Source: Flavobacterium sp. 90 (GTDB lineage: Bacteria; Bacteroidota; Bacteroidia; Flavobacteriales; Flavobacteriaceae). Taken from it: a stretch of DNA of 64,000 nucleotides. Location of the stretch: NCBI RefSeq assembly GCF_004339525.1, contig NZ_SMGE01000001.1, positions 1,302,001 through 1,366,000 on the forward strand, given 5' to 3'. The position numbers and the translations under genes were made by a program. This document shows positions 3,222-12,819 of this stretch, in pieces; within the stretch, counting starts at the first letter, position 1, and every line of letters begins with the position of its first letter. Below the pieces are notes generated by a model. That model worked only from the letters and a program-made list of their open reading frames with translations, did no database searches and was not told where the DNA came from.

Positions 3222-3326
3222 CAGAATGCCGCATGAGGGATAGTAGTAAAAATCCTTCTATTTTTCTTTAAAAATAGAAGATTGTAACGAATAGCCCGAC
3301 CCGCTTTTTCTGCGGGTCATGCCCTA
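3222..3326. repeat. Intergenic palindromic (REP-like) element
   Basis: Two stem-loops lie in the gap between pdxJ and the TonB receptor. The first has perfect 11-base arms at 3255-3265 and 3270-3280. The second has 7-base arms at 3298-3304 (GACCCGC) and 3312-3318 (GCGGGTC). The flanking text (GCATGAGGGATAG before, TAGCCCGACCC after) resembles a dispersed intergenic repeat that I recall from other Flavobacterium genomes. It could also terminate transcription of pdxJ. There is only one copy in this window, so repeat status is inferred. Confidence 0.55.
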
Positions 3327-11173: not shown

Positions 11174-11677
11174 ATGATGAAACAAATCAAAACTTTACTA
11201 ATTGCTGCCATTTTAGTTCTAGGAGCAAGTAACACAATTAACGCACAAGCTAAGGTAGCTCATGTTGATGTTAGCGAGATTATGTCGAAAATGCCTGCAA
11301 TGCTAGATGCTCAAAACCAATTACAAAAATTAAGCGGTACATATGATGCAGAATACAAAAAAATGGTTGACGAATATCAAGTAAAAATCAAAAAGTACGA
11401 AGCTGAAGCTGCTACAGTAACTGATGCTGTAAACGGAGATCGTTCTAAAGAAGTTCAAGACATGCAAAAAAGAATTGTTGACTATAGAGACAATGCACAA
11501 AAAGAACTACAACAAAAAGAAACTGATATCGTAAAACCATTAATGGAAAAAGTAAGAGCTTCTATCCAAAAAGTTGGAAAAGCTAAAGGTTTCCAATATG
11601 TTCTTGACGGTTCTACTTTATTATTAGCTGATGGTCCAAACATTACTGCTGATGTTAAGAAAGACTTAGGATTCTAA
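11174..11677 (+). CDS. OmpH/Skp-family periplasmic chaperone
   Basis: 167 residues, the standard size of Skp. Signal peptide to about NAQA (residue 26), then KVAHVDVSEIMSKMPAM, a central coiled coil and the C-terminal GFQYVLDGSTLLLADG strand typical of OmpH in Bacteroidota. It should bind outer-membrane protein precursors in the periplasm. It is the last gene of the uppS-bamA-ompH-ompH run, since a strong terminator begins 18 bases after its stop codon. Confidence 0.94.
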   Translation: MMKQIKTLLIAAILVLGASNTINAQAKVAHVDVSEIMSKMPAMLDAQNQLQKLSGTYDAEYKKMVDEYQVKIKKYEAEAATVTDAVNGDRSKEVQDMQKRIVDYRDNAQKELQQKETDIVKPLMEKVRASIQKVGKAKGFQYVLDGSTLLLADGPNITADVKKDLGF

Positions 11678-11694
11678 GAAACAAATCACATTAT

Positions 11695-11732
11695 AAAAAA
11701 TGGCTCAAATTTTAAAGTTTGAGCCATTTTTT
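11695..11732 (+). terminator. Rho-independent terminator after ompH
   Basis: Perfect 9-base arms TGGCTCAAA (11701-11709) and TTTGAGCCA (11718-11726) are flanked by A-run 11695-11700 and a T-run of eight from 11727. This is a strong intrinsic terminator for the bamA-ompH operon. Its A/T flanks let it also work for the small minus-strand gene at 11756-11926. Confidence 0.85.
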
Positions 11733-11755: not shown

Positions 11756-11926
11756 TTAATGTGATGGGCATAAAGTTGTTGTTGGTACACAATCCCACAT
11801 AGGTAAACCATTTTCATCATCTCCTCGGTAGCAAATTTTACCAACTGGACAATATGGAAAATTTCCACCATTTATGCTCTTAAGCTCATCTTTTGTTAAT
11901 TTCTGGCAATTTTTGATAAATTTCAT
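11756..11926 (-). CDS. Small GG-leader peptide (bacteriocin-like / natural-product precursor)
   Basis: 56 residues. The N-terminal 21 residues form a classic double-glycine leader: a basic start, the LTKDELKSINGG box, then a 35-residue core after Gly-Gly (NFPYCPVGKICYRGDDENGL and onward) with four cysteines and an end CPSH. Leaders of this pattern are cut by C39-peptidase ABC exporters, and the Bacteroidota versions are annotated as bacteriocin-like or GG-family natural-product precursors. No C39 exporter or modification enzyme lies in the window, so a distant transporter would be needed. The 4-Cys core could be disulfide-bonded. The gene stands alone, convergent with ompH. The leader match is clear by eye; antimicrobial or signalling activity is inference. 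Confidence 0.75.
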   Translation of the reverse strand: MKFIKNCQKLTKDELKSINGGNFPYCPVGKICYRGDDENGLPMWDCVPTTTLCPSH

Positions 11927-12004
11927 AGTTATAGGTTGTTTAATGTTAAACGTAAATATAGTACTTTTTTTACATTTTATTAACTCAATTATTTAAACTC
12001 CAAA

Positions 12005-12039: not shown

Positions 12040-12819
12040 ATGACGAACAACAATCCTATAGGCGTTTTTGATTCCGGTATTGGAGGAACTTCCATCTGGA
12101 ACGCCATTCACGATCTGCTTCCAAACGAAAAAACCATCTATTTAGCCGACAGCAAAAATGCTCCTTACGGTCAAAGAACCAAAGAAGAAATTGTTGCATT
12201 AAGCAAAAAAAATGTAGATTTTCTACTAGAACAAAATTGCAAAATTATTGTTGTTGCGTGTAATACTGCTACAACAAATGCTATTCGAGAACTCCGTGCT
12301 GAATATGATGTCCCGTTTATAGGAATTGAACCTGCAATAAAACCTGCAGCCAATAATTCAAAAACACAAGTAATTGGTATTCTTGCTACAAAAGGAACAT
12401 TGAATAGTGAGTTATTTAATAAAACTGCTGAAATGTTTCAGCATACTACAATAATTGAGCAAGTTGGTCACGGACTCGTGCAACTTATTGAAGACGGAAA
12501 TCTAAATTCTCCGGAAATGACTCAATTGTTAGAATCCTATTTACAACCTATGATTGACGCCAATATTGACTATCTGGTATTAGGCTGTAGTCATTATCCG
12601 TATTTGATTCCACAAATAAAAAAAATCCTTCCGGAACATATTCAAATTATAGATTCCGGAGAGGCTGTTGCAAGACAAACGCAAAATGTCTTACGTGAAA
12701 AAGTAGGTTTTACAGATACTCAAAATAACGACGAACCAATATTTTACGTTAATTCAAATCCTGATGTTTTAAAATCGATTTTAGATTATAAATATCCTGT
12801 AATCGAAAAAGATTTTTAG
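12040..12819 (+). CDS. murI: Glutamate racemase
   Basis: 259 residues. MurI interconverts L- and D-glutamate, supplying D-Glu for peptidoglycan. Both catalytic cysteines are visible: Cys74 in VVACNTATTN and Cys183 in LGCSHYPYL. The N-terminal PIGVFDSGIGG motif carries the conserved Asp11. It follows the envelope operon, but has its own promoter and is separated by a terminator. It converges with the minus-strand gene at 12824, leaving only 4 bases between them. Confidence 0.97.
   Translation: MTNNNPIGVFDSGIGGTSIWNAIHDLLPNEKTIYLADSKNAPYGQRTKEEIVALSKKNVDFLLEQNCKIIVVACNTATTNAIRELRAEYDVPFIGIEPAIKPAANNSKTQVIGILATKGTLNSELFNKTAEMFQHTTIIEQVGHGLVQLIEDGNLNSPEMTQLLESYLQPMIDANIDYLVLGCSHYPYLIPQIKKILPEHIQIIDSGEAVARQTQNVLREKVGFTDTQNNDEPIFYVNSNPDVLKSILDYKYPVIEKDF

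Follow-up and report, generated by a model that had tools for sequence, protein, structure and literature searches.

The window analysed here, a stretch of 64,000 nucleotides of the genome of Flavobacterium sp. 90, harbors a gene for a double-glycine (GG) peptide precursor of 56 residues on the minus strand (11756..11926, stop codon included). The gene starts with ATG and was delimited by reading of the frame and by comparison with its orthologues. The leader covers residues 1-21 (MKFIKNCQKLTKDELKSINGG; 11864..11926, minus strand), ends in ELKSINGG and displays C7, L10, L15 and I18 at positions -15, -12, -7 and -4, the first of these being an additional, fifth cysteine of the precursor. The predicted mature core of 35 amino acids (residues 22-56; 11759..11863, minus strand) contains Cys26, Cys32, Cys46 and Cys53. 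The first-pass annotation, which had proposed a 56-residue frame composed of a GG leader followed by 35 core residues, four of them cysteines, proved exact in this respect. The gene is flanked by the second of two OmpH/Skp-like genes, which is convergent (11174..11677, plus strand), and by the divergent murI of the Asp/Glu racemase family (12040..12819, plus strand). The Pfam assignments of four neighbours (POTRA/Omp85, that is BamA-like, then OmpH, OmpH and Asp/Glu racemase) agree with the location between the bamA operon and murI that had been suggested previously.

A -7-like box, TATATTTAC (11952..11960, minus strand), is found 25 nt upstream of the peptide ATG and is the same in all three orthologues described below. 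Its first eight bases differ at a single position from TAnnTTTG, the -7 box given for F. psychrophilum in PMC9723704. Judging from the position of this putative box, the leader RNA of the peptide transcript would measure about 20 nt. A terminator-like stem-loop (11695..11732), detected by the scan on the plus strand only, lies between skp and the 3' end of the peptide gene and is possibly used by the latter as well. RNA folding of the window transcript region yields a z score of -2.35, with the terminator hairpin as the clearest element. No exporter adjoins the peptide gene, the nearest C39 gene of the genome being located about 405 kb away. Reading of the flanking frames revealed no evident immunity gene beside the peptide gene, and no dedicated sensor gene was seen there.

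The strict leader pattern was matched by one frame in the real window and by none in 60 first-order Markov resamples, a test which is weak because the pattern was written after the peptide had been seen. Orthologues are present at the same skp-murI site in genome G103 (locus L049) and in Flavobacterium sp. JAS (L050), each 87% identical. Substitution rates were calculated over 54 shared codons for the three possible pairs, with pS ranging from 0.361 to 0.371 and pN from 0.054 to 0.077. The window gene yields pS/pN values of 0.361/0.065 against G103 (dN/dS 0.14) and of 0.371/0.077 against JAS (dN/dS 0.16), and the dN/dS between G103 and JAS is 0.11. For the core alone, the orthologue pairs give dN/dS values of 0.12-0.19. 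The four core cysteines and the GG are retained in all three orthologues. At the DNA level the peptide gene of the window is 87% identical to that of G103 and 86% to that of JAS; for these two genomes in the same order, murI reaches 95% and 83% and skp reaches 99.8% and 97.6% (gaps not counted).

A chance open frame, or a decaying gene without product, would fit the outcome of a murI search conducted on 40 relatives, G103 and JAS not included. Among the 25 loci fetched, the window's own included, a simple scan detected a GG-type frame upstream of murI in the window locus only, and in none of the 24 others. Such an origin is nevertheless highly improbable in view of the dN/dS of 0.11-0.16 among three orthologues, the retention of the core cysteines and GG, and the identical -7-like box. 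The skp-murI gap measures 355-363 bp in the three carriers, 147-154 bp in L052-L055, where MurI is 82-90% identical and the peptide gene is missing, and 109-117 bp in another four loci, which are more distant. The gap probably acquired a segment of about 210 bp, with the gene and a promoter of its own, in the lineage of the carriers; insertion is favoured because the gap is shorter by this length in the four near congeners, and repeated loss would be less simple. The window gene is genuine, constrained and exporter-less, and it belongs to a known kind, that of the secreted double-glycine peptides.

The best match to the peptide is the NCBIfam model NF047798 (leader_Chryseo, 'bacteriocin-like protein'), with an E-value of 7.5e-5. 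Leader residues 5-21 are aligned to positions 2-18 of this 18-position model, which spans the leader alone. The score is 22.8 bits for the 56-aa protein, which by itself is below the cut-off of 23.5, and 24.2 bits for the whole open frame with its flanks. Weak leader matches were also obtained with the RiPP model CCRG-2 (15.0 bits, cut-off 24) and with TIGR04149, a model of rSAM-modified RiPPs (14.0 bits, under the 25-bit cut-off), and the Pfam family Bacteriocin_IIc (PF10439) did not reach its threshold (14.5 bits, cut-off 27.1). The PCAT leader rule given in PMC7018657 specifies a GG (or GA/GS) end and hydrophobic residues at -4, -7, -12 and -15. In the window peptide GG occupies residues 20-21 and the hydrophobic I18, L15 and L10 stand at the first three of these positions, the cysteine at -15 being the weak point.

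A leader model was built from 18 sequences, of which the genome of the window contributed 13, and locates 15 places in this genome at E <= 2.4e-4, the next match being at 0.73. Given the origin of these 13 rows, just two of the 15 places (1024384 and 5658663) are newly found. Cysteine is present in 13 of the 15 precursors, those of L078 and L081 being devoid of it. Seven of the matches lie inside two export cassettes and eight, including the window gene, lie away from them; solitary genes are therefore common, and a search conducted next to exporters alone would miss these eight. A search for other peptides with the same leader had been suggested, and such peptides do exist. The qualification of the window gene as an orphan holds insofar as no exporter adjoins it, but it is not an exception in its genome.

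This genome encodes two C39-ABC exporters (1718451 and 1886125), whose cassettes each contain HlyD and a VKOR-thioredoxin gene as well. An exporter away from the peptide gene had been expected, and these two are candidates for it. By coordinates, the cassette GG peptides are located at 1723 kb and at 1886-1890 kb. Cassette A (L044) comprises two GG peptides, DUF6625, DUF6734, VKOR-thioredoxin, C39-ABC and HlyD. Cassette B (L045) comprises VKOR-thioredoxin, four GG peptides, C39-ABC, HlyD and one divergent GG peptide. Both transporters retain, as judged by eye, the DCGPTC cysteine and the His and Asp of the C39 peptidase. The VKOR-thioredoxin genes (L045 8119-9711 and L044 3826-5415, both on the minus strand) encode proteins with CxxC in the VKOR part as well as in the thioredoxin part, which are likely disulfide formers and for which NCBIfam gives no match at E <= 1e-5. 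In the cassette-B protein, the N-terminal region shows a Peptidase_C39 match limited to positions 46-132 (22.4 bits, cut-off 22) and devoid of the cysteine motif; the cassette-A protein has no Pfam C39 match. Such a degenerate C39-like domain would bind leaders without cutting them and, through its fusion to VKOR-thioredoxin, may keep the leader in place while disulfides form during export.

DUF6625/DUF6734 genes are located inside cassettes at L044 5412-7969 (minus strand, by Pfam) and at L106 8834-9922 (plus strand, by eye), and their products perhaps modify the peptides. Tandem arrays of near-identical, cysteine-free GG peptides were also observed beside the VKOR gene, on the opposite strand, with eight copies in L102 (3311-4688, minus strand), four in L106 (3037-3761, minus strand) and six in L107 (9108-10380, plus strand). 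At this place the genome of the window encodes just one divergent peptide (L045 9895-10098), which may be a counterpart of these arrays.

Single-sequence structure prediction models the core with two strands, E30-36 and E42-48, at a mean pLDDT of 74. No solved structure matches the peptide at E <= 1, and a fold search with this modest model gave a best E-value of 1.6 and nothing at E <= 0.001. Conservation of the cysteines, which had been put forward as a check, is complete for the four core cysteines of the three orthologues but incomplete across the family: in an alignment of 16 members, just C26 and the last cysteine line up in all, the second being placed elsewhere in the relatives. Homologues were collected by whole-genome searches and by one contig scan, in which one related locus was present among 135 pattern matches. 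At E <= 0.01 the peptide has 27 matches in 18 of the 121 genus genomes, its own included, so that the homologues with a conserved leader which had been called for exist as close orthologues and as distant forms. A C39 or VKOR-type domain is encoded no more than 8 kb away from 15 of the 27 matches. The other 12 have no such neighbour, the distance being undefined for some of them because their draft contigs carry no C39. Core-like matches (P-x-C..G....R......W-x-C-x-P) occur in eleven congeners, all among the 15 close to such a domain, and in the cassettes read the core-like peptide genes typically have the VKOR gene on one side and the transporter gene on the other. C39 is found in 56 of the 121 genomes, and none of the 18 genomes with a peptide match lacks it (hypergeometric 1.7e-7, a statistic that ignores genome size and kinship). 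The window gene links peptides of Flavobacterium with a probable partner for disulfide formation.

Reading of the 5' regions of the 15 precursor genes of this genome revealed a recurrent element of about 45 nt, an H-type pseudoknot. Its first stem has 5 bp around GACA/UGUC or GUCA/UGAC, its second stem of 6-7 bp pairs the loop with a downstream strand, and its third loop is A-rich. Three strong copies are present in the same genome (L045 7009-7057, L045 8065-8113 and L099 4476-4524, all on the minus strand), and copies from other genomes are found in L103 and L113-L156. A pattern search gave 26 matches, of which five (in L032, L045, L050, L104 and the window) were dropped by eye as chance, leaving the 21 of set A4. 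In this set just the outer second-stem pairs are free, because the first stem and some pairs of the second were imposed by the pattern; standard pairs amount to 97.2% and covariation to 0.309, versus 0.154 in shuffles (equalled in 0 of 500) and at most 0.104 with the partners slid. Set A6, 19 instances outside the first set, is paired at 96.1%, with two-sided changes in 32 cells and a covariation of 0.402 versus 0.186 in shuffles (0 of 500); its number of further pair types was equalled in 48 of 500 shuffles. CG, UA and GC occur at one second-stem position of A6, and the first stem changes from AU to UA in four sequences. The hand-chosen set A7 (n=33) has 43 two-sided cells (0 of 500 shuffles). 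In set A8, made of 13 of the 17 new loci from the order-wide search, five sequences show UA and GC in place of CG and AU at two inner pairs. Paired cells and covariation score are above the shuffles in A8 (0 of 500), and pair types and two-sided pairs are not (493 and 214 of 500). Over 46 distinct instances, two weak ones of which stand outside the 48 genus matches presented below, the mean number of second-stem pairs is 6.43 of 7, versus 5.72 (maximum 6.02) with partners shuffled; this count keeps two rows with a mis-parsed first stem and long loops (L116 294 and L133 921). Rfam 15 has no match to the pseudoknot, the best E-value over the copies being 0.14 for a microRNA family, which is chance level, and SAM-SAH reaches 12.6 bits against a gathering score of 40. 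Among the titles and abstract openings listed in the open-access literature for DUF805, for pseudoknots, riboswitches and bacteriocins in connection with Flavobacterium, and for structured RNAs of Bacteroidetes, none describes the pseudoknot.

The distribution of the element was established with two models, R1 having the first stem alone as structure and R2 the second stem, towards which it is biased for that reason; the genus counts of R1 and the order-wide counts of R2 are lower bounds, since scoring was limited to 50 and 15 candidates per genome, respectively. R1 gives at least 48 matches in at least 21 of the 121 genus genomes, and all 21 positive genomes listed have C39 (hypergeometric 7.9e-9). 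With R2, at least 12 genomes out of 395 in the order are positive; they extend to g17, another genus of the family, and to g5, a genus from a different family. The window gene is devoid of the pseudoknot, R2 having no match in the window at E <= 1. For all 48 genus matches listed a start codon lies 59-71 nt after the motif start, and in 44 of them a small frame with a leader ending in GG, GA, GS, GN or AG was recognized by eye, one of these (G068 C20 44120) being cut by the contig end at SING. As for the remaining matches, G009 178614 and G096 336477 have similar leaders that lack the glycine pair, G004 C11 353434 has 22 codons only and looks broken, and G004 C7 170267 encodes 53 glycine- and proline-rich residues without the usual leader. 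The order-wide search listed 20 matches, and such a frame is present at 58-67 nt in all 17 newly fetched loci. Across the 46 instances the offset to the ATG is 54-71 nt, most often 65 or 66, and an automatic GG pattern fitted 42 of them, one AG-type leader being missed. This tight spacing points to translation control. We consider it probable that GG peptide genes of Flavobacterium and its kin carry an undescribed cis-regulatory pseudoknot, likely tuning translation initiation, which the window gene has escaped. The proposed trigger would be a ligand, a protein or a peptide. This RNA element of the relatives is a more novel matter than the window gene. If confirmed, it would constitute an RNA switch reserved for peptides that are secreted as weapons or signals, and a new regulator marking secreted-peptide genes, which could be located by their RNA rather than by their short frames; the conditions under which Bacteroidota deploy such peptides would become directly testable.

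The Rfam element DUF805b (RF02914) precedes five of the 15 GG peptide genes of this genome (L085, L086, L079, L088 and L089), four times above the gathering score and once below it (32.4 vs 35.6). Like the pseudoknot it is a short cis element placed before GG peptide genes, but it differs in sequence. It was rejected as an element specific to these genes, being present in 106 of the 121 genus genomes at E <= 0.001, compared with 56 for C39. The distance from DUF805b to the ATG is similar to that of the pseudoknot, and the folds may be related. A Flavo-1 RNA (RF01705) is also present in the window (3223-3305, plus strand, 60.6 bits).

The interpretation that we favour, with a probability of about 0.6, is that the window precursor would be cut and exported in trans by a PCAT, and that its disulfide-bonded product is predicted to act against related Bacteroidota. 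A PCAT encoded elsewhere in the genome would recognize the leader and cut after Gly-Gly, and export would release a 35-residue peptide in which the VKOR-thioredoxin of a cassette would close two disulfides. The window precursor would be one of about fifteen served by the two export cassettes, one of which presumably handles it, and the peptide would also have to be released across the outer membrane. The gene would have arrived in the skp-murI gap of this lineage as a small self-contained transcription unit. Outside the cell, the mature peptide would most likely target related Bacteroidota, as bacteroidetocins do. The earlier proposal of a secreted disulfide-bonded peptide with its exporter elsewhere is supported, at the level of sequence, by the leader homologues, the C39 exporters and the VKOR-thioredoxin genes.

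With the same export, the product could instead be a secreted signalling peptide, a pheromone sensed by kin. Such a role would suit a gene without an evident immunity gene beside it and a constrained core, whereas an arms-race toxin might diversify, and TPR/AraC-like regulator genes identified by eye flank cassette B. A peptide of 35 residues with four cysteines is, however, long for a GG pheromone, and no sensor gene was seen in the vicinity. The lack of an evident immunity gene is also shared by bacteroidetocin producers, as presented in PMC6671954. Signalling is accordingly considered an unlikely but serious alternative, and killing of relatives is rated above it as the most likely predicted role. 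It is still less probable that the gene encodes a RiPP precursor whose tailoring enzyme is located elsewhere, the Cys, Ser and Thr of the core being substrates rather than disulfide partners. The two unknown-function families encoded in cassette A, DUF6734 and DUF6625, would be compatible with such a modification, as would the leader matches to CCRG-2 and TIGR04149, but both of these score under their cut-offs, and the large genes tested in cassette B, namely those of VKOR-thioredoxin, C39-ABC and HlyD, do not include a tailoring enzyme.

The favoured reading, a trans-exported and disulfide-bonded peptide directed against relatives, can be compared to two known systems. The pneumococcal transporters ComAB and BlpAB share GG peptide substrates and read the hydrophobic leader positions -15, -12, -7 and -4 (PMC7018657). 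The window system resembles them in its GG precursors, in a putative shared transporter pool and in the leader positions, occupied here by C, L, L and I. The pneumococcal peptides differ in being Gram-positive and pheromone-controlled, and the parts of PMC7018657 that bear on them mention no disulfide-forming partner. The closer likeness is to the bacteroidetocins, proposed class IIf bacteriocins of Bacteroidota with a GG leader and four cysteines, for which a C39 transporter gene is among those interrupted in transposon mutants and deletion of a thiol oxidoreductase attenuates the toxin (PMC6671954). As far as that account goes, the window peptide has in common with them the phylum, the GG leader, the four cysteines and the lack of an evident immunity gene. 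The C39-ABC and thiol oxidoreductase partners are also paralleled, the counterpart of the oxidoreductase being here the VKOR-thioredoxin protein. Bacteroidetocins are described in the same source with a 15-aa leader, a 42-aa core and a four-gene region that includes an exporter and a five-TM protein, whereas the window gene stands alone. This likeness resides in the leader, the cysteine count and the partner genes. The GG leader and four core cysteines which characterize the bacteroidetocins are present in the window peptide, but its gene is not beside an exporter, a thiol oxidoreductase and a TM protein; rather than being classed as a class IIf bacteroidetocin, it is best read as bacteroidetocin-like.
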